DNA of 64,000 nt, taken from NCBI RefSeq assembly GCF_051622035.1, contig NC_135355.1, positions 20,910,986 through 20,974,985 of the forward strand. Direction: 5' to 3'. Positions 16,288-56,282 of the stretch are shown here, in pieces. The position numbers and the translations under genes were made by a program. Below the pieces are notes generated by a model, which did not search any database, was not told the origin of the DNA, and worked only from the letters and a program-made list of their open reading frames with translations. How positions within the stretch are numbered: position 1 is the first letter of the stretch; the number at the start of each line of letters is the position of its first letter. This DNA is from Arctopsyche grandis (Eukaryota > Arthropoda > Insecta > Trichoptera > Hydropsychidae).

Positions 16288-17779
16288 TTATCCACTTTTG
16301 TAGTTATCATCTCTCAAAATGCCGCCACGAGCCTTTGGGAAAGGACTCTTTTTGAAAGCAAAACCAAATTCGAAATTGGGAAGATCACAGCAATAAGTAT
16401 AACCATCGACAATTGTCTTGCGTTCAAGGAAATTTAGCCAATTAACGTTTTTGCATATATCTTCACATAACACAAAGCTGTCAATGTCGGTCAAAGTTAG
16501 ATGAGGGTTGTTGATTTGAATTATTGCAACAGACTTTTGTGAATGTGGATCGTATACAACCTGAAATTAATTTATGGTCAATCATTTATATGAAAGTATT
16601 TTCTTCATAATTAATATGCAAATAAAGAATAAAACAAACCTTCCAGATGTAAAGTGGGACTGGAATTGCTTTATCAGAATCACTATTATAATGTAAATAC
16701 ATGTCTTTGTATGAGAATCCCCATTTGGCTGGAAGACTCATTTTCCTGTATGTGCCTGTATATACTGTAAGCGGCCTATTGAAAGATTTAGCTAAATTAT
16801 TTACTCTTTTCTCAATTTCAATCCAATTTTTCTGAAATATTATAAATTAAAATTAGTATTATTTCATTACTATTACATTACCAATACCAATAATAATGAA
16901 TATAATTTTTTTACCCTGTTGCACGTACTCCATTGTGGTACTGCATTTAAGTAATGAGAGGTTGATGCTTGTTCCGGTAAAAATAAAAGATCTGAATTTG
17001 AAACTAATTTCCCTTTCTCTAAATAGCATCTATCTTTATCAAAGAAATCTTTGTTCAGTATTTTTTTAAACGTTTTTGCTTGGTTGCTTGATACATAAGC
17101 AGAATCAACATCAACGTTGCCAAACTGACTTAGACTTGTCGTCCAACTCTGATCATATTTAGCCGTTACTGCTTTTTCAATGTCGCCAGAAACTGTCACT
17201 TCTGTGTACAAGGTGAGCTTTTCCTTTTTGTTGAAACAAACTGTATATTCGGCGACAAAATCTCTATCAATTTGGAAACCAATTTTAATAAGCTCAGTGT
17301 CAGACCCCAGGCATTGTTGCCCTGTGCTCACTTCGGTGAACTCAGGAGGATAATTGCACATGAGGTCACTGAATTTATATGTCTTTTGGCTTATTTCAAA
17401 CTCCTTGCCGCTTTTACATTTCGCTGAAACTACCGTTGACCGAAGATCAGCAGATTTAAAAGAATTCTTTTTGGACGAACTTGCCGATGGGCATGCAAAG
17501 CGAACAATTTCATCTCGTTCTATATCGACAGATCCTTTAGAAGAGTGAGCCAATGATATCCATTTATCATCATGTCCTGATAATATTAATGGATGATTTT
17601 TGTTAAGATCTTCTTTGACATTCAGCACGCAATCTACATCAATTTATAAAAATAAATTTAAGGTTAAACGTAGGTATATGCATATTATGAAATTTGTTTT
17701 TTGTGTGAAAAATTTACTCACTTGCATTGATGACATCAACATAAAATATAGCAAATGTGAAAAAATATGCTTTCCACAT
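16288..17779 (-). CDS. Secreted DNA/RNA non-specific endonuclease-like protein, catalytic His replaced
   Basis: Coding exons on the minus strand run 17779-17722, 17633-16915, 16831-16640 and 16560-16288, 1242 nt, 413 aa, all in phase. A signal peptide opens it (MWKAYFFTFAIFYVDVINA). The fold is that of the insect secreted DNA/RNA non-specific endonucleases (the gut dsRNases of moths and locusts, Serratia nuclease family): LTLYTEVTVSG, then YLEKGKLVSNSDLLF, then YLNAVPQWSTCNR-KNW, with the C-terminal NWLNFLERKTIV block and paired cysteines. Active members have G-H-L in the second block; here residue about 228 is Lys (codon at 17008-17010). The metal-binding Asn region (NAVPQW...N..NW) is kept. 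It is therefore probably not an active nuclease; it may bind nucleic acid. The frame is intact across all four exons, so it is not obviously a pseudogene. Confidence 0.85.
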
Positions 17780-18322: not shown

Positions 18323-18559
18323 CTAGCTGTATTACCCGGCTTCGCTCAGTGTTTATAATATAAACCGCTTAAACATGACTAAGCTAATTTAATTAAAAAA
18401 AAAAAAAATTTAAAATAAATTTAAAAATTTAAAAAAAAAATAAAAAAAAAATAAAAAAAAAAATCAAAAAAAAAAAATAAAAAAAAATCAAAAAAAAAAT
18501 AAAAAAAAAATCAAAAAAATTTTTTAAAAAAATCAAAAAAAAAAAATCAAAATTTTTTT

Positions 18560-19860
18560 TTGCCTTCTAGGGCTTCGCCCCTCCACGCCCCATGAGCAAT
18601 TGCCGTTTAGGGCTTCGCCCCCATGATCAGTTGCCTTTTAGGGCTTCGCCCCTCCGCGCCCCCATGATTAAAAGCCGTCTAGGGCTTCGCCCCCCTAAGT
18701 TAATGCCTTTTAGGGCTTCGCCCCCCGCGCCCCAAAGGTTAATTGCCGTTTAGGGCTTCGCCCCCCTTAGTTAATGCCTTTTAGGGCTTCGCCCCTCCGC
18801 ACCCCCATGATTAAATGCCGTCTAGGGCTTCGCCCCCCTTAGTTAATGCCTTTTAGGGCTTCGCCCCCCGCGCCCCCAAGATTAATTGCCGTTTAGGGCT
18901 TCGCCCCCCTTAGTTAATGCCTTTTAGGGCTTCGCCCCTCCGCGCCCCCATGATTAAATGCCGTCTAAGGCTTCGCTCCCATGATCAGTTGCCTTTTAGG
19001 GCTTCGCCCCCCACGCCCCCAAGATTAATTGCCGTTTAGGGCTTCGCCCCCCTTAGTTAATGCCTTTTAGGGCTTCGCCCCTCCGCGCCCCCATGATAAA
19101 ATGCCGTCTAAGGCTTCGCCCCCATGATCAGTTGCCTTTTAGGGCTTCGCCCCCCGCGCCCCCAAGATTAATTGCCGTTTAGGGCTTCGCCCCCCTTAGT
19201 TAATGCCTTTTAGGGCTTCGCCCCTCCGCGCCCCCATGATTAAATGCCGTCTAAGGCTTCGCCCCCATGATCAGTTGCCTTTTAGGGCTTCGCCCCTCCG
19301 CGCCCCCATGATTCAAAGCCGTCTAGGGCTTCGCCCCCCTTAGTTAATGCCTTTTAGGGCTTCGCCCCCCGCGCCCCCAAGATTAATTGCCGTTTCGGGC
19401 TTCGCCCCCCTTAGTTAATGCCTTTTAGGGCTTCGCCCCTCCGCACCCCCATGATTAAATGCCGTCTAGGGCTTCGCCCCCCCTAGTTAATGCCTTTTAG
19501 GGCTTCGCCCCCCGCGCCCCCAAGATTAATTGCCGTTTAGGGCTTCGCCCCCCTTAGTTAATGCCTTTTAGGGCTTCGCCCCTCCGCGCCCCCATGATTA
19601 AATGCCGTCTAAGGCTTCGCCCCCATGATCAGTTGCCTTTTAGGGCTTCGCCCCCCGCGTCCCCAAGATTAATTGCCGTTTAGGGCTTCGCCCCCCTTAG
19701 TTAATGCCTTTTAGGGCTTCGCCCCTCCGCGCCCCCATGATTAAATGCCGTCTAAGGCTTCGCCCCCATGATCAGTTGCCTTTTAGGGCTTCGCCCCTCC
19801 GCGCCCCCATGATTAATTGCCGTCTAGGGCTTCGCCCCCCTTAGTTAATGCCTATTAGGG
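18560..19860. repeat. Array of GGGCTTCGCCC hairpins
   Basis: Dozens of copies of the self-complementary GGGCTTCGCCC occur every 30-40 bp, separated by three alternating spacers (TTAGTTAATGCCTTTTA, CTCCGCGCCCCCATGATTAA, ATGCCGTCT). The order of spacers repeats, so this is a higher-order tandem array inside Helitron-like copy C. Confidence 0.9.
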
Positions 19861-19861
19861 C

Positions 19862-20860
19862 TTGCGCCCCATGAGGCTGGGCCCCCCGGGCCCCCTTCGG
19901 GGCCCCACGGGGCTGCGCCCCTTGTGGCGCCCCCTTTTGAGCCCCATGGGGCTGCGCCCCATGAGGCTGGGCCCCCCGGGCCCCCTTCGGGGCCCCACGG
20001 GGCTGCGCCCCTTGTGGCGCCCCCTTTTGAGCCCCATGGGGCTGCGCCCCATGAGGCTGGGCCCCCCGGGCCCCCTTCGGGGCCCCACGGGGCTGCGCCC
20101 CTTGTGGCGCCCCCTTTTGAGCCCCATGGGGCTGCGCCCCATGAGGCTGGGCCCCCCGGGCCCCCTTCGGGGCCCCACGGGGCTGCGCCCCTTGTGGCGC
20201 CCCCTTTTGAGCCCCATGGGGCTGCGCCCCATGAGGCTGGGCCCCCCGGGCCCCCTTCGGGGCCCCACGGGGCTGCGCCCCTTGTGGCGCCCCCTTTTGA
20301 GCCCCATGGGGCTGCGCCCCATGAGGCTGGGCCCCCCGGGCCCCCTTCGGGGCTTCACGGGGCTGCGCCCCTTGTGGCGCCCCCTTTTGAGCCCCATGGG
20401 GCTGCGCCCCATGAGGCTGGGCCCCCCGGGCCCCCTTCGGGGCCCCACGGGGCTGCGCCCCTTGTGGCGCCCCCTTTTGAGCCCCATGGGGCTGCGCCCC
20501 ATGAGGCTGGGCCCCCCGGGCCCCCTTCGGGGCCCCACGGGGCTGCGCCCCTTGTGGCGCCCCCTTTTGAGCCTCATGGGGCTGCGCCCCATGAGGCTGG
20601 GCCCCCCGGGCCCCCTTCGGGGCCCCACGGGGCTGCGCCCCTTGTGGCGCCCCCTTTTGAGCCCCATGGGGCTGCGCCCCATGAGGCTGGGCCCCCCGCG
20701 CCCCCTTCGGGGCTTCACGGGGCTGCGCCCCTTGTGGCACCCCCTTTTGAGCCCCATGGGGCTGCGCCCCATGAGGCTGGGCCCCCCGGGCCCCCTTCGG
20801 GGCCCCACGGGGCTGCGCCCCTTGTGGCGCCCCCTTTTGAGCCCCACGGGGCTACGCCCC
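19862..20860. repeat. 90-bp G+C-rich tandem array
   Basis: About eleven near-identical 90-bp units, each holding ATGAGGCTGGGCCCCC, the palindrome-rich CTTCGGGGCCCC and TTGTGGCGCCCCCTTTTGAG. Copies differ at only a few bases. Because 90 is a multiple of three and the unit lacks stops in several frames, long open frames appear on both strands; these are not genes. Confidence 0.95.
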
Positions 20861-21199
20861 TTGTGGCGCCCCTGGCGGGGCCCCATGAAACTACTCGCTT
20901 TGCGCCCCCGCGGGGGTGAATCCATTGAAACGAAAAAAACAAATCGGCGCCCATGGATCGAAAAAAAAAAAATCGAATCACGTGTTCGATGACGTCACCG
21001 ATCTACGGACGAAGACGACGACGACGAAAACGACGACGACGACCAAGGATATTTACATACATACAAAGTCCCTTTCCAAATTATAGATTAGATTAAAAGC
21101 ATATAAATACTGTAGTATGTCAAAAATCTTTATTTTTCAATATTAAATACATGTTTTTAACAAAATAAAGAATTTTTGCTTGATGTCTATATAAGAAAT

Positions 21200-37296: not shown

Positions 37297-37340
37297 TCTA
37301 ATCTATAATTTGGAAAGAGACTTTGTATGTATGTAAATAT

Positions 37341-38138
37341 TGTTACGGGGACAAGTAGGAGATGGTGTAGAAATATTATAGTCACAGTTTTTTTTATAAG
37401 ATCTTCTTTAATAGTAGTAAGTATACACGAGATAAGTTTGTATTACACGTTACTAGTTAGTGGTTACTAGTTAAGTCGTCTAATCGCGAGTCACTAGTTA
37501 GACGGTTCAATTGTAAGTCAGTGATTAGTAAGAGACGGTTCGATCGCAAGTAACTATGTATGTATGTAGTAATCACAAGTTACTAGTAAGGCAGTTTAAT
37601 CGCAAGTAACTATGTATGTAGTAATCACAAGTTACTAGTAAGGCAGTTTAATCGCAAGTGAGGTTCAATAGATCTAACATGAGCATTTATACACAAAAGA
37701 ATGATAAGCTTTAACCAATCACAGAATTTTGGTAAATAACAAAGTGATTAAGATACAGAGCAACATCCGTGTGTAAGACAGTTTTAATATTTGATTTATG
37801 TATCCTTTGAGAGTATCGAGACATTTTTTAGTAGAAACACAATTTATCATAGAGATAAATAGAGATAATAATATTTTAGGGTTTACACGTATCGTGGGAC
37901 AAAATGCAGCTATAGCAATAAAGATTATTAAAAGTAATACTTTGTATTTCAACAGGTCATTAACTGTGTCGTCTTATATAGCAATCGTGTTAGAAACTCG
38001 CATAAATTATAATAGATAAGAAGTTAAGTAGATAGAGTTGATCATAAGTAGTTAAAAATGAAACAGATGTTCAAACTTAAGGTTAAAGGGTATTATACAT
38101 AAGTATATACATAGGTCGTAAGATCCTACCACATAACA
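37341..38138 (-). repeat. LTR (3' LTR in the element's sense)
   Basis: 798 bp, ends TGTTACGG...CATAACA (palindromic TGTTA/TAACA termini). It matches the copy at 45295-46092 in length and at every block I compared. Confidence 0.9.
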
Positions 38139-41100
38139 TCCCCATCGTTAGATTAAACATATGGCGGGAGTGCCATGTGATTTAACAATAAAATTAAAGT
38201 ATTTTGTATAAAGTTTTAAGAATTACAAACATCGTTATAAGAATTCCATGTGATCTAACATGTAAAGTAATAAAGTATTATATAATCACTTAATATAATT
38301 ATTATAAAAGTTAAGTTTTTCAAAAGACTCTAATATAAGATGTTACAAAAATAGTAATTGTAAATGTACATGTTATTGAAACCTCTTTTTTTTTTTTTTT
38401 AATATACAAAAAATTATAAAAATATTGATTATAGGAAAAATCACAAAAATATATAAATTAATCACAAGATTAATAACTATACTATATCAGAAATAGTAAA
38501 AGTAATTACATGTTTAAACCTATAACAATAAAATTGTATAAATCAATTGAAATAGTAAAAGTTGAAAGAATAATAATGATTTTGTATTTGTTTACAAAAC
38601 TTAATGAAATGAAAATATAATATACGAATTAATAGAATATAATAATCGTGTAGGATTTTTACAATTGGTATAAATGTATTAAGTTAGTAAGAATTCAATA
38701 ATATTTTTCTTCAAGTAATAGTAATACATTGGTTTACTTGAAATCTATAACTATACTATAAATTAGAATAATATATGTTTGTTGAACTGCGAAATACAGA
38801 TAAAAAATTAAAAAGTTTAAGAATTAAAGATTAAATTATATTATATAATTTTCAAATATAAAGTTTCAGTAAAAGTATTTTGTTATATAAAACATTATAA
38901 TTATTAAGATTAAAAGTTTATTTACTTTTCTTAGTAAGCTATTTGTAACCTTTCAATAAGAGATTGGATTGATAAAAGTTAAAATATTGATTTCCACATA
39001 TGAAATCAAATTTTATAATTAGTTTAAAATGATAATTTCATTTTAAATGTGTCTATAATATAATATAATTGTTCAATCAAATCAACGTCTATAATATAAT
39101 TGTTCAATCAATTTTTTTCTAAAACATCCATTGAATTTCAACAGGCACAATAATAATTCATTAAAATGATAAAATAATGTTTCTGAATATATAGAATATA
39201 AATTTTTAAAGTGTAAACTTAAATTGTTTAAAGATTTTTTTTTTTTTATAATTAAGAGATTACACAAATTAAAAATACAAGAATAATAGTTATAAACATT
39301 AACAATAATTAATAAGATAATTGAGAAATAATGACAACAACAATAATTAATACGATGGTTGGAAATCGCTGAATTAAGTAGATAAAGTAGATAAAGAATT
39401 GCTACTTTCGAAGAGGAATTCGAATAGTTTTTTTATTTAACGTGTTGTATATAGCGTTAACTTTTCGAATATAATATTCCATTACATTATTCTATGATGT
39501 ATGGTATATTTTATTTTTGATATCGTCAATATGTGATGACAATATACGTATATGAATAAATTGTCATTGCATTAAAATAATTCAAAAATCTTTTATTTAT
39601 CAACAACTTTGTCTTCTTTATTTTTATATTATTGATGTATACATGAGAGTTCAATAATGTTATACATATTTATTTTTAAATATTATGTTCATAGTTCTGT
39701 AATAGAACTAAATTAATTGTTATTTTTAAATTTCTTTATGTATTTTACTGGTTATCGACATTTATAAAATATTAATAAAATATAAATTTTAACGTTGAAA
39801 CTAACATGTCGATATTAAACTTTTGGGTATCAGGATAAACTGATTTAATTAAATTTAAACAATTTAATTAATTTTCAAGTCATATTTATTTATAAAATAT
39901 AAAATATTTTATGGGATTCACTGTTATAATAAGATTTATATTTGTTTCTAAGAAATTTACTTTTAGCTTTAGATTTCGGTTTATTTAGGTTTTTATAACT
40001 ATGTTGGTTTACGATTTATATTAGTTGTATGTAGATTGCGAATGTAAATGGTTGTCGATTACTTACAATCTTCTTCTCGAAATTTCACATGGTTTTTTAT
40101 TTTATTTATTTTTTATTCTATATTATTTAAAATCAGGATTTAATTTATTTTACGATTTACACTTGCGTATACATACATATGTATGTGTATGTAGTGTTTA
40201 AGAACATATCAATTACGTAATTTATATGTATATGTAATTCTATTCTAATCAGTTTGTTTATAATCCGTGTAACGAAGGTGTTATATAGTCATTTGAAATA
40301 GTTCGACTGCAAATGTATGTTCGTTCAAAAGAATAATTTATTTTTTAATTGACAATAAGTAGTTTGAATACATTGAAAAGTTTTACAACTACTGTCAAAA
40401 TTAGATGTGAAATCTATTTTTCGATTAATCTAATACATAAATTATTATATAACTTTAATAAGTGAAACGTAAAAGAGGTTAGTAAAAATAAAGAAATTTC
40501 AAATTGTCTGTTGCAACAATTTATTATTGATTATAATGATTCTTAAAAGAATGAGTTTATGAGTATTAACTATCATCATTTGGAATAGTTTACGTTTTCG
40601 ATTTAAGTAATTGAATTTTTTTTTATTATTATTATTTTTTTTTAATATTTCAAAAGCAATTAGTAATATATTTTTTAATTCTTAATTAAATAATATTTAT
40701 AATAGTAGTTTTAATTATTCATAATCAAATTATTCAACTCACGTCTAAGTTGTAATAGTGAAACTGAATTCTATATTTTTAAATATGTATAGGTTGTTTA
40801 TAAATTTTATAAACTTAAGATTTTTAAATATATATATTTGATAAGTAAGATTTTCCATAATCTTTTATTCTTTTATGATGAAAGATTTTACACTGACCTT
40901 TCATTATTAATCTCAAGACGATAATAATTTCTTTATATTCGATAATATATGATTCGAGTATAATAATTCGATAATAATTCCTTTATAGTATTTTAAAATA
41001 TATTTGACTTTTCATTTGATATAATTTTTTTTTTCATAGATAGTGATAATTTTAATTATTTATAATTTGAAATAATACATTTTATTTCTTCAACAATATA

Positions 41101-42855
41101 ATGCAATGTGCTGCATAATATATGATCCTTATGATCCAAAGAGATTCGTCAATCTTAATAAGATAATTTCATTAGTTCATAAGTTTGGTAATGAAATTTT
41201 AAAATTCGTAATAATTTAATCTATGTAGTTCTGATTCCATTATACCATTATATTATATCTGATTCTAATTCCATTATATGGACATACGTTATATGTACGT
41301 AGTCAAAACAGTAGTGTTGAAGTTAATTTTAACAGATTTATGAACGATATTATAATCGTATTCTTCTAATAATGATTTCTGTTTGATGGACCTAGATTCA
41401 AGATCTTTGATTTAAAATAGCTATTGACAAGTGATTTATAACAAATGTGAACTTTCAACAGATGAAGTATGTTCTAATGTTGAATAATTCCATCATTCTA
41501 ATTTAATTTTTTTTTTTTTTTTTTTTTGAAAGTATACATTTATGTGAAAAGTAGATATTTAGATATCTTACTTTGTAATATTTAATATTACTAGCTTTGT
41601 TAGTGAAAAGAAAAGAGTTCAGAAAAATAAGGAGTTATAAAGTACGAAATTAGTATTAATTTTGTTGATCTGATCACTTCAATAGATTTTTATTTATTTA
41701 ATAGAGATGTGAGGGTTTAAATGTTCCTCATCAAAACTTTGGATTTAAGATAATAATAATAAGTAAATAATCCTAGAGATATTATAATAAGCATCTTTCG
41801 CGTGTTTGTATTTTATTTTGGAGAATTCGAATTTGTCGAATTATATTTTATTCCTTTCATTTTATTTTTCAAAATGAAATCCAAAAATGATTATCAAGTT
41901 GATACATATTTATTCCTAAGTATCAGTAAGTCAATTGATACTTCTTATCTTATCTAATATAATAATTTTAATTATCTAAAAGAAATAATTTTTATTTATA
42001 GTATATTTATTATTTATAACTTCAAATCAATTTTCAAATTTTTTTTTTTTTTTTTTTTTTTTTATATATGCATTTAGTATACATATACATATTAATAGTA
42101 TTGTATAGATGAGAGGGATCGTATAACCCTATTTATACGATAAATTATTAATTGCTTCAAAATAATCGTCGATATATGCAAATAAGTTGCTTGTCGATAT
42201 GTGCATCGATATTACATATATAATATATCCTTCGTTTATTATTAATTGATTCGATATATGTATGCTTAAATAATATTTAGCATAGTATAATATTTAAATC
42301 CTTTTTTTTTATAACTAATTAATTGCTCTTATGAAATGTTAATAATAGCATACATCACTGTCTGTGATATAATTTAATTCATAATTGAAATTTTTAACTT
42401 TATCTGACAACTTTCTGCTTGAGTTTCTTAAAAAACAACATGTTTTTTTTTATTAAAAATAAAATAATAGATCAAAACAATAAATTAATTTGAATCTATG
42501 TATTTATGTTGATGATTTAAAGTTTAGTATACATACATGTAGAATGTACATACATATGTCATAAGTGATTTTAAAAAGAGAACACTAGTCATAAATCGTG
42601 ATATTATCTAATTTACGATTCTTCCTTTGGGTGTTTCCATTATCAGTTTTGTTATTTTTTTTTTTTTTAGATACTTCCCAGATTAGTATTCGTCTACGGG
42701 ATTTACGGTTTTACTTTGATTATCAATTTCTTATTTCGGAATTACCGAACTCAATAACACATTTTCTATGAAATAGTTAAAACGAGTTGGTTTGATATAT
42801 TGTCGATACATACAGATAGTTAAATTGTCAGTTAAATGCATTCAATAAAAATTAT

Positions 42856-44800
42856 TTATTTTTTTATTCTTGATAACATGTTCGCATTCATGTTATTTAA
42901 ATTTCCGTTACAATATCGATTATTGCGATGTACTTGAACGAAAGTGACATGATTTTTAATTTTTATACTTCTTCGAAGTGAATTTATTTTTATTTTTATT
43001 TTTACCGTAGGTTTGCATAACGTTTTGTTAGTGAATCGAAGTTCATTTATAAATTTATGTTTATTATGTTCGCTTATTTTCATTTTCTTATTTATCTTCA
43101 TTTTAATAGTTTTATTCATTTTTATAATTAATTTGTTGAAGACCATATCTTCTGACAAATTAACGAATTCATTTTTAACATAACGTTCAATTATTTTTAT
43201 TTTATTTTTAATCTTCAGTTTAAAATTTTTATCATTGCTCAGGAACATATCTTCTGGCAATTTGACTTCTTTAATGAATTCTTCTTTTATATTACGATTA
43301 ATAATTTTCTTTTTAATTTTCATCTTTTTATTTTCATTTAAACGATTGCACAGGATTTTATCATCTGGCATTGTAATTTCTTCAATGGATCCTTCATTAA
43401 TAATATGATTAATTATTTTATTTTTACCTTTTATTTTCGCCTTTTTATTTTCATTTAAACGATTGCACAGGATTTTATTATCTGGCAATGTAATTTCTTC
43501 AATGGATCCTTCATTAATAATATGATTAATTATTTTATTTATATCTTTTATTTTCGCCTTTTTATTTTCATTTAAACGATTGCACAGGATTTTATCATCT
43601 GGCAATGTAATTTCTTCAATGGATCCTTCATTAATAATAAGATTAGTTATTTTATTTTTATCTTTTAGTAATTTTAATTCATCAATAGATTCATTATTAA
43701 TTATTTTTATTTTCGCGTTTTTATTTATATGATTGCACAGATTCACATCTTTTGGCAATATTATTTCATTAATAGGTTCTTCATTAATTGTTTCGTTTTT
43801 TATATTTTTATTTAGGCGATTAGTATCATCTATCAGCGTATCATCTATAAGAGTATCATCTATTAGCTTATCGTTTACTAACGATTTTGATTCATTAGAA
43901 TCACGAAAAGATTCACGTAAATTTTCAATAATGTTTTTATCATCGTTACAAATAGCTAAATTGGGTAATAATTCATTTTCGATAGACTCTGAATATGAAT
44001 CAATAGCAGGCGAATGTAATTTTTTTAAATGAGATATCGTATTCGAATTTAAATTAACTGATGACGATTCGGTTTTATGTTCGATTGAAATATCGTCAAC
44101 ATTATCATCTTCTATTGGAAAAACTGTATCGAAGACGGTTAGAGTATTTTTGGTATAATCAAGTATTGCTCCACTTGCTATTAAAAATTCGTTAGGTAAT
44201 ATTCCGTCAAAAGGTAAATTGAATTTTTCTATTACTGCTTTATGAGCATTATGTAAATATGTGACATGACGTCTACTTTTAATAATGGGGTTTTCTTTTT
44301 TTGGATTTCTACGATCATATGAAATAAACGTATTTTGAATTCTTAATATTTTTTTTCTCGATATCAAAGCCATTACCTTGAAAAATGAAATCAGCGCCAA
44401 GAACGCCGTTAAAATCTTTGTTAAAGTTGTTATTAATTAATTGGAAAGAGAATGGTAAAATATTATTATTTTCTAAAATTAAATGAACGATATCACGGGA
44501 ATATTTATTTTGTGATATATTTAAATTTTCAATTGATATGAATGAAAAAGAATGAAAAGGGTTAAATAAAAATTTAAGTTTTTTATTATTTGCTTCTACT
44601 GCGTCTATTTCTATATAATAGTCATAATTAGAATTAATTATTACTTCGTTAATTTTTTCTGGATTTTCTATAAATGATAAGTTTGAATAAACAGGTTCAT
44701 CGATATATGTCGATTTTTTAAAATTTGATTTGGGTTTTCTATAACATCGTCGCGAATATTGATCCGAATATTGTCGTGAATAATAATTGTTGTATGCCAT
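42856..44800 (-). other. Coding block of the LTR element, protease-like region plus 117-bp repeats
   Basis: The minus-strand coding block near the 5' side of the element contains stretches resembling the end of a retroviral-type aspartic protease (for example LPFDGILPNEFLIASGAI). Downstream is a lysine- and asparagine-rich region with three 117-bp (39-codon) tandem repeats at about 43330-43680. No gag zinc knuckle is evident. This is a fossil part of the LTR element, not a host gene. Confidence 0.5.
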
Positions 44801-45294
44801 TTTACAAAATAAAATATTTAAATCAACACATTAAAATAATACAATAAGGGTATAGTAAAGGAGAAAAGGTTTAGGATTAGGAGAAAAGAAATAGTCTCTT
44901 ATCTGAATTTTTGTTGATGAAACTGGATGATGATATACACATAGTGCTGGATCTGCTTGGATCTCGAGTTGTACTCGTACGTGCTGCTAGTTCTGCGTCA
45001 CGGACTTGCGATGTCCTCAGAGGATGCACCGTTTCCTTTGAAGATTATATGGTAGATCTGCTCTCTCTGCATACTGTGAATTGGTTCTGCACACTGTCTG
45101 CTTTCTTGTCAGTTGTCCCGTTAGAAGTTAGAAGTCTCCGCTTAGAAGATTCTGGTAGTTGGATTTTTCGCTAGATTTTAAGGATGAAAATCCACCTGGT
45201 CCACTTCGAAGTTGTCTATACAACGGTTGTTCCTTCGTTTAGTAGTGATGTCCAGTTGTTCAGCTATATCCGCACCCGCTACCACCAATTTTTA

Positions 45295-46092
45295 TGTTAC
45301 GGGGACAAGTAGGAGATGGTGTAGAAATATTATAGTCACAGTTTTTTTTATAAGATCTTCTTTAATAGTAGTAAGTATACACGAGATAAGTTTGTATTAC
45401 ACGTTACTAGTTAGTGGTTACTAGTTAAGTCGTCTAATCGCGAGTCACTAGTTAGACGGTTCAATTGTAAGTCAGTGATTAGTAAGAGACGGTTCGATCG
45501 CAAGTAACTATGTATGTATGTAGTAATCACAAGTTACTAGTAAGGCAGTTTAATCGCAAGTAACTATGTATGTAGTAATCACAAGTTACTAGTAAGGCAG
45601 TTTAATCGCAAGTGAGGTTCAATAGATCTAACATGAGCATTTATACACAAAAGAATGATAAGCTTTAACCAATCACAGAATTTTGGTAAATAACAAAGTG
45701 ATTAAGATACAGAGCAACATCCGTGTGTAAGACAGTTTTAATATTTGATTTATGTATCCTTTGAGAGTATCGAGACATTTTTTAGTAGAAACACAATTTA
45801 TCATAGAGATAAATAGAGATAATAATATTTTAGGGTTTACACGTATCGTGGGACAAAATGCAGCTATAGCAATAAAGATTATTAAAAGTAATACTTTGTA
45901 TTTCAACAGGTCATTAACTGTGTCGTCTTATATAGCAATCGTGTTAGAAACTCGCATAAATTATAATAGATAAGAAGTTAAGTAGATAGAGTTGATCATA
46001 AGTAGTTAAAAATGAAACAGATGTTCAAACTTAAGGTTAAAGGGTATTATACATAAGTATATACATAGGTCGTAAGATCCTACCACATAACA
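45295..46092 (-). repeat. LTR (5' LTR in the element's sense)
   Basis: Second 798-bp LTR, followed directly by ATATCCTTGG of Helitron-like copy A. The sense is minus because the primer-binding-like site and coding block lie to its left. Confidence 0.9.
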
Positions 46093-47149
46093 ATATCCTT
46101 GGTCGTCGTCGTCGTCTTCGTCCGTAGATCGGTGACGTCATCGAACACGTGATTCGATTTTTTTTTTTTTCGATCCATGGGCGCCGATTTGTTTTTTTCG
46201 ATTCAATGGATTCACCCCCGCGGGGGCGCAAAGCGAGTAGTTTCATGGGGCCCCGCCAGGGGCGCCACAAGGGGCGCAGCCCCGTGGGGCTCAAAAGGGG
46301 GCGCCACAAGGGGCGCAGCCCCGTGGGGCCCCGAAGGGGGCCCGGGGGGCCCAGCCTCATGGGGCGCAGCCCCATGGGGCTCAAAAGGGGGTGCCACAAG
46401 GGGCTCAAAAGGGGGCGCCACAAGGGGCGCAGCCCCGTGGGGCCCCGAAGGGGGCCCGGGGGGCCCAGCCTCATGGGGCGCAAGCCCTAATAGGCATTAA
46501 CTAAGGGGGGCGAAGCCCTAGACGGCAATTAATCATGGGGGCGCGGAGGGGCGAAGCCCTAAAAGGCAACTGATCATGGGGGCGAAGCCTTAGACGGCAT
46601 TTAATCATGGGGGCGCGGAGGGGCGAAGCCCTAAAAGGTATTAACTAAGGGGGGCGAAGCCCTAAACGGCAATTAATCTTGGGGGCGCGGGGGGCGAAGC
46701 CCTAAAAGGCATTAACTTAGGGGGGCGAAGCCCTAGACGGCTTTTAATCATGGGGGCGCGGAGGGGCGAAGCCCTAAAAGGCAACTGATCATGGGGGCGA
46801 AGCCCTAAACGGCAATTGCTCATGGGGCGTGGAGGGGCGAAGCCCTAGAAGGCAAAGGCTCAGGGGGGCGCAGAGGGCGAAGCCCTAGAAGGCAAAAAAA
46901 AATTTTGATTTCGATTTTTTGAGCGAAGCCGGGTAATACAGCTAGTCTAATCTATAATTTGGAAAGAGACTTTGTATGTAAATATCCTTGGTCGTCGTCG
47001 TCGTCGTCATCGTCCGTAGATCGGTGACGTCATCGAACACGTGATTCGATTTTTTTTTTTTTTCGATCCATGGGCGCCGATTTGTTTTTTTCGATTCAAT
47101 GGATTCACCCCCGCGGGGGCGCAAGGCGAGTAGCTTCATGGGGCCCCGC

Positions 47150-48500
47150 CAGGGGCGCCACAAGGGGCGCAGCCCCGTGGGGCCCCGAAGGGGGCCCGGA
47201 GGGCGCAGCCTCATGGGGCGCAGCTTTATGGGGCACAGCCTTATCGGCCGCAGCCTTATGGGGCGCAACCTTATGAGGCGCAGCCTTATGGGGCGCTGTC
47301 TTATGGGGCGCAGCCTTAGGGGCGCAGCCTTATGGGGCGCCGCCTTATGGGGCGCCGCCTTATGGGGCGCCGCCTTATGGGGCGCCGCCTTATGGAGCTA
47401 AGCCACATGGGGCCCCGAAGGGGGCGCAAGGGGGCGCAGCCTCATGGGGCGCAGCCCCATGGGGCCCCAAAGGGGGCGTAGCCTCATGGGGCGTAGCCCC
47501 ATGGGGCCCCGAAAGGGGCGCAGGGGGGCGGAGCCTCATGGGGCCCCGAAGGGGGCGCAGCCTCATGGGGCGTAGCCTTATGGTGTCTTATGGGGCACAG
47601 TCTTATGGAGCTTAGCCGCATGCGGCCCCGAAGGGGGCGCAGCCTCATGGGGCGCAGCCCCATGGGGCCCCAAAGGGGGCGCAGCCCCATGGGGCACCAA
47701 AGGGGGCGCAGCCTCATGGGGCCCCGAAGGGGGTGCAGCCTCATTGGGCCCCAAAGGGGGCGCAGCCCCATGGGGCCCCGATGGGGGCGCAGGGGGGCGC
47801 AGCCTCATGGGGCGCCGCCTTATGGGGCGCTGCCTTATAGGGCGCCGCCTTATGGAGCTAAGCCACATGGGGCCCCGAAGGGGGCGCAAGGGGGCGCAGC
47901 CTCATGGGGCCCCAAAGGGGGCGCAGCCCCATGGGGCCCCAAAGGGGGCGCAGCCTCATGGGGCCCCGAAGGGGGTGCAGCCTCATTGGGCCCCAAAGGG
48001 GGCGCAGGGGGGCGCAGCCTCATGGGGCGCCGCCTTATGGGGCGCTGTCTTATAGGGCGCTGTCTTATGGGGCGCAGCCTTATGGGGCGCCGCCATATGG
48101 GGCGCTGCCTTATGGGGCGCCGCCATATGGGGCGCTGCCTTATGGGGCGCCGCCTTATGGGGCGCCGCCTTATGGAGCTAAGCCACATGGGGCCCCGAAG
48201 GGGGCGCAAGGGGGCGCAGCCTCATGGGGCCCCAAAGGGGGCGCAGCCCCATGGGGCCCCAAAGGGGGCGCAGCCTCATGGGGCCCCGAAGGGGGTGCAG
48301 CCTCATTGGGCCCCAAAGGGGGCGCAGCCCCATGGGGCCCCGAAGGGGGCGCAGCCTCATGGGGCGCCGCCTTATGGGGCGCTGTCTTATAGGGCGCTGT
48401 CTTATGGGGCGCAGCCTTATGGGGCGCCGCCATATGGGGCGCTGCCTTATGGGGCGCCGCCTTATGGGGCGCCGCCTTATGGGGCGGCCCCGAAGGGGGC
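47150..48500. repeat. Heterogeneous GC-rich array (GGGGCGC units)
   Basis: Short units such as CTTATGGGGCGCCGC and CCCCGAAGGGGGCGCAG are mixed. A block starting AGCCACATGGGGCCCCGAAG recurs 320 bp apart (47861 and 48181). The long open frames on both strands are by-products of stop-free GC units. Confidence 0.85.
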
Positions 48501-50010
48501 GCAGCCTTATGAGGCGAAGCCCTAAACGGCAACTGATCATGGGGGCGAAGCCCTTGACGGCATTTAATCATGGGGGCGCGGAGGGGCGAAGCCCTAATAG
48601 GCATTAACTAAGGGGGGCGAAGCCCTAGGCGGCATTTAATCATGAGAGTGCGGAGGGGCGAAGCCCCAAAAGGCATTAGTTAAGGGGGGCGAAGCCCTAA
48701 ACGGCATTTAATAATGGGGGCGCGGAGGGGCGAAGCCCTAAAAGGCATTAACTAAGGGGGGCGAAGCCCTAAACGGCATTTAATAATGGGGGCGCGGAGG
48801 GGCGAAGCCCTAAGAGGCAACTGATAATGGGGGCGAAGCCCTAGACGGCATTTAATCATGAGGGTGCGGAGGGGCGAAGCCCCAAAAGGCATTAGTTAAG
48901 GGCGGCGAAGCCCTAAACGGCAGTTAATCATGGGGGCGCGGAGGGGCGAAGCCCTAAAAGGCATTAACTAAGGGGGGCGAAGCCCTAGACGGCAGTTAAT
49001 CATGGGGGCGCGGAGGGGCGAAGCCCTAAAAGGCAACTGATCATGGGGGCGAAGCCCTAGACGGCAATTAACCATGGGGACGTGGAGGGGCGAAGCCCTA
49101 AAAGGCAACTGATCATGGGGGCGAAGCCCTAGACGGCATTTAACCATGGGGACATGGAGGGGCGAAGCCCTTATCGGCAACTGATCATGGGGGCGAAGCC
49201 CTAGACGGCATTTAATCATGAGGGTGCGGAGGGGCGAAGCCCCAAAAGGCATTAGTTAAGGGCGGCGAAGCCCTAAACGGCAGTTAATCATGGGGGCGCG
49301 GAGGGGCGAAGCCCTAAAAGGCATTAACTAAGGGGGGCGAAGCCCTAGACGGCAGTTAATCATGGGGGCGCGGAGGGGCGAAGCCCTAAAAGGCAACTGA
49401 TCATGGGGGCGAAGCCCTAGACGGCAATTAACCATGGGGACGTGGAGGGGCGAAGCCCTAAAAGGCAACTGATCATGGGGGCGAAGCCCTAGACGGCATT
49501 TAACCATGGGGACGTGGAGGGGCGAAGCCCTTATCGGCAACTGATCATGGGGGCGAAGCCCTAGACGGCATTTAATCATGAGGATGCGGAGGGGCGAAGC
49601 CCCAAAAGGCATTAGTTAAGGGGGGCGAAGCCCTAAACGGCAGTTAATCATGGGGGCGCGGAGGGGCGAAGCCCTAAAAGGCATTAGCTAAGGGGGGCGA
49701 AGCCCTAAACGGCAATTAATCTTGGGGGCGCGGGGGGCGAAGCCCTAAAAGGCATTAACTAGGGGGGGCGAAGCCCTAGACGGCATTTAATCATGGGGGT
49801 GCGGAGGGGCGAAGCCCTAAAAGGCATTAACTAAGGGGGGGCGAAGCCCTAGACGGCTTTGAATCATGGGGGCGCGGAGGGGCGAAGCCCTAAAAGGCAA
49901 CTGATCATGGGGGCGAAGCCCTAAACGGCAATTGCTCATGGGGCGTGGAGGGGCGAAGCCCTAGAAGGCAAAGGCTCAGGGGGGTGCCGAGGGCGAAGCC
50001 CTAGAAGGCA
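48500..50010. repeat. Hairpin array with 360-bp higher-order repeat
   Basis: The inverse of the hairpin array in copy C (GGGCGAAGCCC every 30-40 bp). The segment 48841-49200 is repeated at 49201-49560 almost without change, and a third partial copy begins at 49561: a 360-bp higher-order repeat. Confidence 0.9.
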
Positions 50011-50387
50011 AAAAAAAATTTTTTTTTTTTTGATTTTTTTTTATTTTTTTTTTATGTTTTTTTAAATTTTTTTTTTAAAATTTAAAATTTTTTTTTTTTT
50101 TTTTTAATTAAATTAGCTTAGTCATGTTTAAGCGGTTTATATTATAAACACTGAGCGAAGCCGGGTAATACAGCTAGTATACAATAATGTAGTGTTTTAT
50201 TGTTGAAATAAAAATTGATACGACAGCTAAGTAAAATGTTTGGGATAAATCAGCGGCGTAGCGTGAATTCCAGGTGCCCCCCCGCAAAATATTTTAAGGC
50301 GCCCCCCCCCCATATATTTGGGTGACCGTGAAAAAGTCGAAAATATTCGTTTATCATGCATACATATGAAAAACGGTTAGTATATAT

Positions 50388-50639: not shown

Positions 50640-50757
50640 ATACATAGTACCGTTTACCATGCACCCTTTTTTCTGATCTTTCGACTTAAGATCTTTCGAT
50701 TTTCGAACTTTGCCTTCCGATATTTGCTTTTTCGACCTTTTCACTTTCGGTCCCGTA
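50640..50757 (-). mobile_element. MULE-like arm
   Basis: ACCGTTTACCATGCACCC, CTTTCGACTTAAGATC and TTCCGATATTTGC lead to CTTTTCACTTTCGGTCCCG. It shares the TTTTTCGACC variant with the arm at 62599, so these two form a subgroup. Confidence 0.55.
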
Positions 50758-51218
50758 AAATAAATTTCCAAATTAATAATTCAAACCTTTTTACGTACAT
50801 ATACCTATATATCGAAGTGCACAATCTGTTTAAAGCAGGGGAATTTTCGCATGATCACAAAACTTCATCTATTGTTACTACGTAAATCGATAAAGTAAAT
50901 ATACAAGAATAAGAGAGAATTCTCAGAAAATAGTTTTAAAAATGGCACTGACGTTCAAAAAATGGAAAAAGACGGCAGTCTTCTAGCCCTATTGGCATAG
51001 ATCAATTACACAATGAGGATGAATTCAAAATATAATAATGTATGTACATATAGTACATACAATAAAACGAGATGCAAATAGGTAGAAAAATAAGAGGTTT
51101 TTAAAAAAATATTACAAAGAAATTACAGAACAAATTAAAAAATCCGTAAAAAAGGCGCGCCGCTTTGTGGCGCCCCCCCCGCATTGCGGGGTCTGCGGGC
51201 GCGGTAGGTACGCCACTG

Positions 51219-55743: not shown

Positions 55744-56105
55744 CTAGTTGTTTTACCCGGCTTCGCTCAGTATTTGTAATATAAACAGATTAAACATGGC
55801 GAATCTAATAGTAAATATTCATTTGTTTTTTTATTAAATTTATTTGAATCGAAAAATATATATGTATATCGAATCGTCATAGAAACTGTAATATAATCTA
55901 ATATATAATTTCGAAAGAGACTTTGTATCTTTGATTGGAACTTCGTAAACAAAACAGTTTATATTAGATGTTTTATATCTTCGATGTATTATATATGTAT
56001 GTATATATTATAGAATCGTCATAAAAACCGATTTGTTTTCGATGTTACGAACCAAAATGATGTATTTACATACTTGCAAAGTCTTTTTCGAAATTATATA
56101 TTAGA
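55744..56105 (-). mobile_element. Helitron-like remnant with two facing 5' ends
   Basis: The left end is the inverted 3' terminus (CTAGTTGTTTTACCCGGC) and the right end the inverted 5' terminus (GAAATTATATATTAGA, 56105). Inside, near 55894, a second 5' terminus (TCTAATATATAATTTCG) points the other way, so 55894-56105 has inverted 5' ends. Confidence 0.5.
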
Positions 56106-56282
56106 TATTAGTTTTTACGCGAACTAATCCTGGTCAGTTATATTGTACACAAAATACTAAATTGACAAACGAGCTACATAGTTCGTTGATGCACCATTTT
56201 TGTGCGTAGGCATTAGTATTTTTAATCGTTTTCCCATCCTCTATCTATGTACATACACACATATATATGTACATACATATGT

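Follow-up and report, generated by a model that had tools for sequence, protein, structure and literature searches.

How can one element keep its ends and the order of its parts constant from copy to copy while the body between them differs so much in length? This question is raised by three related copies, A, B and C, in a 64,000-nucleotide stretch of the Arctopsyche grandis genome, hereafter the window (C1:20910986-20974985; assembly of 475.7 Mb in 189 contigs). An earlier note had described the three as a Helitron-like family with common TC...CTAG ends, an A/T insertion site and the same internal order, and reading the copies confirmed that A, B and C indeed agree in their 5'-TC...CTAG-3' ends, in their A|T flanks and in the order of their parts (Table 1). 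From TC to CTAG, this order comprises a 5' module, a GC-rich array 1 of the GGGGCGCAGCCCC type, a GC-rich array 2 of the GGGGCGAAGCCC type, a T-rich tract and a 3' module. The arrays were also rightly called GC-rich in AT-rich surroundings, the GC fraction being about 0.6-0.75 in the arrays of copies B and C versus about 0.3 across most of the window. They do vary in length, as had been claimed, but the 0.9, 2.8 and 3.2 kb assigned to them are the lengths of whole elements and not of arrays, for which Table 1 gives the measured values.

Copy A had been taken as one 9.6-kb element (37297-46945), which proved wrong: it amounts to 897 bp in two pieces (44 + 853 bp) that are split by an LTR element. 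The two 798-bp LTRs of this insertion are identical over the full 798 bp, and the LTR element is young. Its interior has about 20% GC over most of its length; in the two frames scanned, Pfam detected no retroviral domain and a single SfsA_N hit, which falls short of its cut-off. Copy A lacks the greater part of its 3' module, and its shortened 3' end probably reflects a local deletion, since it is found once in the genome; for the same reason we rejected this end as a minimal mobile terminator. Between copies A and B lie zero bases (46945|46946). The resemblance of the ends is not due to chance: a degenerate 23-nt pattern for the 3' end, with two N and as many as 3 mismatches allowed, had five matches in the window and none in 100 shuffles; three of the five belong to the array family and two to an array-less relative, family D.

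Table 1. Coordinates of the array family and associated features within the window.
Feature	Position	Strand	Remarks
Copy C, complete	18323..21092	-	2,770 bp; 5' TC at 21092, 3' CTAG at 18323; host A before, T after
Copy C 5' module	20916..21092	-	TCTAATCTATAATTTGGAAAG..., GTC microsatellite, ...GATTCACC
Copy C array	18561..20915	-	2,355 bp; 65 GNA-triloop hairpins in copy C, element strand
Copy C array 1	~19858-20915	-	90-bp period
Copy C array 2	~18561-19870	-	GGGC-GAA-GCCC type, 143-bp period
Copy C T-rich tract	18401..18560	-	A-rich on plus strand; limits approximate
Copy C 3' module	18323..18400	-	GTTTAT-ATT-ATAAAC palindrome, GCGAAGC mini-hairpin, CTAG
Copy A 5' piece	37297..37340	+	44 bp
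LTR element inserted in copy A	37341..46092		LTRs 37341-38138 and 45295-46092; 4-bp duplication ATAT
Copy A 3' piece	46093..46945	+	853 bp; array 679 bp; 16 GNA hairpins
Copy B, complete	46946..50177	+	3,232 bp; adjoins copy A head to tail (CTAG|TC)
Copy B array	47109..50010	+	2,902 bp; 61 GNA hairpins in copy B
Copy B array 1	47109 to ~48512	+	several short periods
Copy B array 2	from ~48513 to 50010	+	72/360-bp period
Copy B 3' module	50108..50177	+	terminates in GAGCGAAGCCGGGTAATACAGCTAG
Paralogous empty site for the L051 insertion	50757..50821	+	...ACGTACA^TATACC..., without duplication
Family D copy (array-less relative)	55744..56106	-	363 bp as taken; same end type (TCTAATATATAATTTCG...AACAACTAG)

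Genome-wide, the ends coincide. The exact 44-nt 3' end was found 924 times, the exact 33-nt 5' end 923 times, and neither of the reversed control patterns at all. For the 100 first-listed 5' ends, which all lie on C1, an exact 3' end was located at a distance of 919-4,423 bp (median 2,022) in 84 cases; as only exact ends were taken for this pairing, a long pair may conceal a diverged end. Ends that fail to coincide across the genome, one of the results by which the earlier note would have been refuted, were looked for and not found. Array and ends also belong together: there are 1,092 occurrences of the final array unit together with its A-run, and this array end lies 158-307 bp upstream of 77 of the 81 exact 3' ends listed for C1 up to 23.5 Mb. 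Conversely, an exact 3' end follows 77 of 100 listed array ends, the remaining 23, copy A among these, having none within 60-400 bp. Viral contigs gave no match to the family 3' end.

Canonical Helitrons (HLE1) have 5'-TC and CTRR-3' ends with a palindrome hairpin near the 3' end, insert between A and T without duplication, and move through a rolling-circle intermediate, with autonomous relatives that carry a Rep-helicase between the same ends. The insertion site was read in a sample consisting of the window and part of the best 40 or 41 matches among 1,004 and 1,389 candidates. T follows all 33 sampled 3' ends, in 16 cases because the next copy begins there, and 2 of the 17 unjoined T-followed ends belong to family D. 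Of 46 sampled 5' ends, 16 are preceded by CTAG, one of which (L039) is not part of a family 3' end; the other 30 are preceded by A in 22 cases (three of them family D), by T in 7 and by C in 1, and the sample also includes the duplicated pair L026/L027 as well as L025, which repeats a joint of the window. In a second set of eight plus-strand copies from the start of C1, hand-picked by position and not by score, T follows all eight and A precedes seven, the eighth being joined to a D-family 3' end. Together, T therefore follows 25 of 25 unjoined 3' ends (17 in the first sample and 8 in the second). The eight first-sample 5' ends without a preceding A show, by eye, short T/C-rich leaders before TCTAAT, and two of them lie behind the CTAG of another copy.

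No clear target duplication, the other result that the earlier note had named as refuting its reading, was found at eight copies with both flanks read or at one paralogous empty site. Matches between the end of one flank and the start of the other reach 2, 5, 12 and 2 bases in four of these copies, in A/T-rich or TA-repeat flanks, and are absent from the other four; one copy sits in a TA repeat, and at one the 5-base match TATTA is readable as a duplication. At the empty site, window 50757-50821, lies an element-free copy of the host repeat that the flanks of the L051 copy match when split at A^T; the L051 insert starts with a leader, TTTCTTTTCT, before TCTAAT and not with TC. Some 5' ends carry terminal reiterations, of 31 nt in L068, of 11 nt in L067 and, present twice, of 46 nt in L069. 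To read them as nested insertions finds no support, as nothing left over from an older copy lies beyond the 3' end. The T^T insertion of Helentron/HINE-type (HLE2) elements was not observed, the flanks here being A^T, and neither were the terminal inverted repeats or LTRs with duplication that mark cut-and-paste and LTR elements; the two ends are dissimilar by eye. The Helitron label is supported by the TC and CTAG ends, the A^T site and the head-to-tail joints described below.

An autonomous RepHel relative between the same ends, which the earlier note had also proposed to look for, was not found at the Rep-domain loci. The PF14214 profile has 16 matches in the genome, and the family ends (TCTAATCTATAATTTGG...GTAATACAGCTAG) are absent from the 3-15 kb read around each. 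Among these places, a C13 locus combines an 836-aa frame containing the Rep domain with a frame for a PIF1-like helicase, a C3 cluster has Rep matches at an exact 9,032-bp spacing, and a C9 match is degenerate and contains stop codons. In the stretches read, the C13 locus, part of the C3 cluster and the C9 locus gave no support as partners: sensitive BLAST against the family ends returned only short matches of 12-20 nt, with a best E of 0.02. Further downstream at the C13 locus, a GDFN-like motif can be seen by eye; the neighbouring 173-aa frame, when scanned, gave no Pfam match.

What, then, fills the space between these constant ends? Array 2 is built mostly of 31-, 40- and 41-bp units, and array 1 is more mixed. 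We counted perfect stems of at least four pairs with three-base loops on the element (TC...CTAG) strand of 26 units, L027 included, and found 927 GNA and 0 TNC loops among 1,314, compared with 20 GNA and 22 TNC among 394 in the window outside 18323-21092 and 37297-50177; the array units are related by descent, so that these counts are not independent and p-values are indicative only. The main types are GGGC-GAA-GCCC (557), GGGC-GCA-GCCC (235) and CCCC-GAA-GGGG (121). For the sets on loop type and neighbour similarity L027 was left out, giving 24 units and nine neighbour pairs, and in these 24 units the number of GNA hairpins ranges from 4 to 78 per copy. Moreover, when array 2 was cut at the spacer motif, hairpin columns were conserved at 0.993, 1.000 and 0.999 in the 31-, 41- and 40-bp units, respectively, versus 0.764, 0.940 and 0.918 for the spacers. 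The GCGAAGC core recurs at the end of the element. There, read by eye, it forms a GC-GAA-GC mini-hairpin on the TC...CTAG strand at 16 nt from the CTAG end, and a 15-nt palindrome rich in A/T is placed 28 nt from that end. The palindrome typical of a Helitron 3' end is weak here, since folding of the terminal 78 nt does not surpass that of shuffles (z -0.28). By eye, 9 of 10 bases around GCGAAGC are common to the array unit and the terminal hairpin, a match too short for proof, and we make no claim that the unit descends from that hairpin.

These properties raise the possibility that the array is functional, with GNA mini-hairpins on the transferred strand serving as extra terminators or nuclease shields, so that longer arrays would be beneficial. 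Such a role would account for the one-sided loop count, for three stem types with mainly GNA loops, for the conservation of the hairpin columns and for the similar motif at the terminus. DNA mini-hairpins in which a GNA loop is closed by at least two G-C pairs have been described as exceptionally resistant to heat and nucleases, GCGAAGC having a Tm of 78 C (PMC4686876; on stable DNA mini-hairpins in general, PMC10527192). In Helraiser, termination depends on a 3' hairpin with an important loop; changing the loop had the effect of deleting the hairpin, and swapping the stem left about 90% activity (PMC4778049). The loops themselves give a divided answer, since GGGC-NNN-GCCC stems carry GNA in 789 of 800 cases, with all four bases in the middle position, whereas CCCC-NNN-GGGG stems do so in only 123 of 184 and GCCC-NNN-GGGC stems carry GGG in 82 of 86. 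In addition, the stretch of array 2 that was folded did not outdo its dinucleotide-shuffled versions, whichever strand was taken (z +0.47 and -0.30, with an energy model that may omit a GNA bonus), and copies with four hairpins occur, also in tandem (L026). An array 1 stretch folds better than shuffles on both strands (z -3.56 and -2.61). When the window control is restricted to G+C-rich stems, it yields 3 GNA and 0 TNC among 14, too few to call the bias unusual, and kinship among the units weakens the counts further. We therefore regard a functional array as unlikely and prefer to see the GC block as a satellite riding inside the element.

The earlier reading of a mobile element that carries and amplifies a satellite is upheld by array lengths that differ even between near-identical tandem neighbours. 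The two full neighbours at L064 show one mismatch in 2,763 aligned bases, together with a 105-bp indel in array 1 and a 3-bp indel near position 45, in the microsatellite. Whatever the mechanism, array length has here changed in the time taken by a single point change. From the differences in length, we infer that arrays grow and shrink by slippage, which the hairpins may assist, or by unequal exchange between units. The family thus presents a tandem array of variable copy number between conserved transposon ends, as in satellite-carrying rolling-circle elements.

The arrangement of copies A and B recurs throughout the genome. The exact 28-nt joint CAGCTAG|TCTAATC... occurs 167 times, with 0 for the control and 0.006 predicted under random A^T insertion, and the first 100 joints listed fall into 70 places (47 single, 16 double and 7 triple). 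Inner copies of tandem stacks, where read, keep both ends. As sequences, the 167 exact CTAG|TC joints are compatible with a rolling-circle intermediate. Joined neighbours also resemble each other, with a median containment of 0.67 (9 pairs; range 0.25 to 0.98) versus 0.40 for different loci (265 pairs; p = 0.005). Their mean |ln length ratio| is 0.20 versus 0.59 when shuffled (p = 0.003) and, without the short L026 pair, 0.22 versus 0.36 (p = 0.044), based on nine pairs of fully read units from which the spacings L059 and L065, not being single units, were excluded. Near-identical neighbours suggest co-duplication.

Joints are also formed by family D, whose exact 20-nt 5' end occurs 4,646 times, some of these probably as internal inverted copies. 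We found 54 D-D joints, 17 of which lie in one array, mostly in 226-bp steps (C2:4,381,402-4,385,200). Set against 5' ends, this is 54 joints for 4,646 ends versus 167 for 923 in the array family; family D is probably older and more decayed, and its denominator is probably inflated by internal copies. Mixed joints occur as well. Twelve lead from an array-like 3' end to a D 5' end, where 0.03 are expected by chance under random A^T insertion, an estimate that ignores AT-rich site preference, and in 6 of the 12 the upstream partner carries, in the sequence read, the exact 44-nt array-family 3' end. In the order D 3' to array-family 5', there are two. The direction is thus 12:2 (p = 0.013, with only the D 5' ends counted as targets), or 6:2 (p = 0.29) when the exact end is required.

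Since mixed joints are not single-donor concatemers, the resident end was probably the target in them, and the 12:2 direction is a hint that new copies come in at the A|TC boundary. Boundary targeting is plausible because the Helraiser protein cuts the left terminus at the TC end and at an internal AT (PMC4778049). It is nevertheless doubtful that every joint arose by such self-targeting: only half of the twelve have the exact end and 6 versus 2 is not significant, the rate per target is 12 in 4,646 D 5' ends compared with 167 in 923 own 5' ends, and near-identical neighbours favour co-duplication. The opposite extreme, in which every joint results from rolling-circle read-through and each stack is a one-donor concatemer, would explain why the L064 and L026 neighbours are nearly alike and why neighbour lengths are similar. 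We consider this improbable, as the diverged family D takes part in exact joints in either order, which points to insertion at a resident end, and one pair of neighbours has a containment of just 0.25; the mixed joints may speak against read-through as the only source unless later recombination made them. That the family is merely an ordinary GC-rich satellite whose shared flanks spread through recombination, with no Helitron involved, is extremely improbable and contradicted by the coincident exact ends, the A^T flanks, the empty site and the regular spacing of array end and 3' end, despite arrays that are tandem and variable in length and the 23 array-end motifs that lack an exact 3' end.

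Taken together, the elements are very probably canonical Helitrons that are not autonomous and would be mobilised in trans by RepHel; as a family they have reached high copy number, appear young, carry a satellite and would form their joints in two ways. Points against this reading are that no family ends were found in the stretches read around the Rep-domain matches, that the 3' palindrome is weak, that eight of the 30 5' ends, and likewise the L051 insert, have a leader at the start, and that one copy has the TATTA match. A RepHel protein would move the copies by way of an intermediate, single-stranded or circular, similar to that of Helraiser. Some joints could then stem from co-duplication or rolling-circle concatemers, as the near-identical neighbours would indicate, and others from a new copy that inserts precisely at the edge of a related copy already in place. 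A bolder and rather unlikely proposal is that the strand-specific array of GNA mini-hairpins, which would be of extraordinary stability and either multiplied from or convergent with the terminal GCGAAGC, provides serial terminators or nuclease shields on the displaced strand and that, at the same time, the transposase prefers the A|TC boundary of residents, leading to stacking and to satellites that grow within a moving element.

Tandem-repeat-carrying rolling-circle elements (Cg_HINE, DINE-TR1, Hel-2) and tandem Helitrons are already known, and the following comparison refers to those parts of the published descriptions that were accessible. Like Helibat1/Helraiser, the array family has TC...CTAG ends, A^T insertion without duplication, precise TC/CTAG head-to-tail junctions, which in Helraiser are those of circles, and a candidate hairpin near the 3' end; unlike these, it shows no visible coding capacity and contains a large internal hairpin array (PMC4778049; PMC5876387). 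The Helraiser terminator is a palindrome of 19 bp that lies 11 nt before the end, whereas the candidates here are a 7-nt mini-hairpin at 16 nt and the 15-nt palindrome at 28 nt. Similar to the Cg_HINE Helentrons of Crassostrea gigas, which have satellite-like repeats at their centre, the family is non-autonomous and of rolling-circle type, with a tandem array between conserved ends, two arrays in order (in HINE sometimes) and empty sites without duplication (PMC7492417). Cg_HINE elements, however, prefer TT and have subterminal inverted repeats, in contrast to A^T and CTAG here, and their arrays consist of 140-180-bp monomers, mostly five or fewer per array, compared with units of 31-41 and 90 bp here, where a copy has from 4 to 78 GNA hairpins. 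DINE-1 and DINE-TR1 of Drosophila are likewise non-autonomous rolling-circle elements with internal tandem repeats, but they are of Helentron type, and the sections consulted do not mention GNA hairpin units (PMC12628747; PMC7492417). The insect Hel-2 Helitrons are short and non-autonomous, with TC/CTAG ends, A/T flanks, a 3' stem-loop and, in a legend, internal tandem arrays; their consensus is 250 bp, and the accessible text does not mention a GC hairpin array such as the one carried here (PMC4344730). Head-to-tail arrays have been described for plant Helitrons and attributed to rolling-circle amplification (Xiong et al., 2016, as reported in PMC12628747), and many of these plant arrays have multiple 5' ends and one 3' end, whereas the inner copies read here keep both. 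A one-strand GNA mini-hairpin array and such a share of exact two-ended joints are not mentioned in the accessible parts of the literature compared, from which we do not claim their absence from print. What this family adds to the known systems is a series of some 920 copies in one genome with constant ends and between 4 and 78 GNA hairpins each (24 units), many with the terminal GCGAAGC core, and an internal satellite whose length differs between 2.8-kb copies that are about one point mutation apart. Comparison of copies would allow hairpin number to be related to termination, capture and stacking, and the family is thus a natural test of how Helitrons start, stop and stack.

In three genomic loci carrying full copies of the array family, the non-autonomous Helitron-like elements with a GC hairpin array, the 5' terminus is reiterated (see table), and either an A stands at the end of the reiteration unit ahead of TC or a TCT leader is present. 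We searched all three loci for the leftover of an older copy 3' of the full copy's end and found none. At another locus (L026, ~1465-1500), a leader, TCTAGTCTAGTCTTCTAGTCTATC..., precedes a 5' end and resembles minimal end joints in repeat. Two further array-family copies lie in opposite orientation (L041, 1475-1501), their 5' ends ~25 bp apart with TA-rich DNA between them.

Within the LTR element that splits copy A of this family, no pol-sized frame was found among frames of at least 75 aa, and a Pfam scan of its two listed frames returned zero matches above the cut-off.

Features in the window and in sampled genomic loci (L, own coordinates)
Feature	Position	Strand	Remarks
LTR element	37341-46092		identical LTRs, 798 bp each; interior GC ~20%
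526-aa frame in LTR element	42856-44436	minus	overlies 117-bp repeat
Second frame in LTR element	44315-44830	minus	
Frame with a match to DNA/RNA non-specific endonuclease	16876-17643	minus	PF01223, E 1.6e-11
5'-terminal reiteration, 11 nt	L067 117-127		immediately upstream of full copy
5'-terminal reiteration, 31 nt	L068 223-253	reverse	immediately upstream of full copy
5'-terminal reiteration, 46 nt, x2	L069 273-364		immediately upstream of full copy
836-aa frame with Helitron Rep domain	L058 2277-4784	minus	PIF1-like helicase frame adjoins

Elsewhere, Rep-domain matches recur at a spacing of exactly 9,032 bp (G000:C3:20695959-20738225; L055 and L056), apparently as a tandem duplication. Family D, the array-less relative, forms 17 exact head-to-tail joints, mostly spaced 226 bp apart, at G000:C2:4381402-4385200, and this array is a Helitron-derived tandem satellite.
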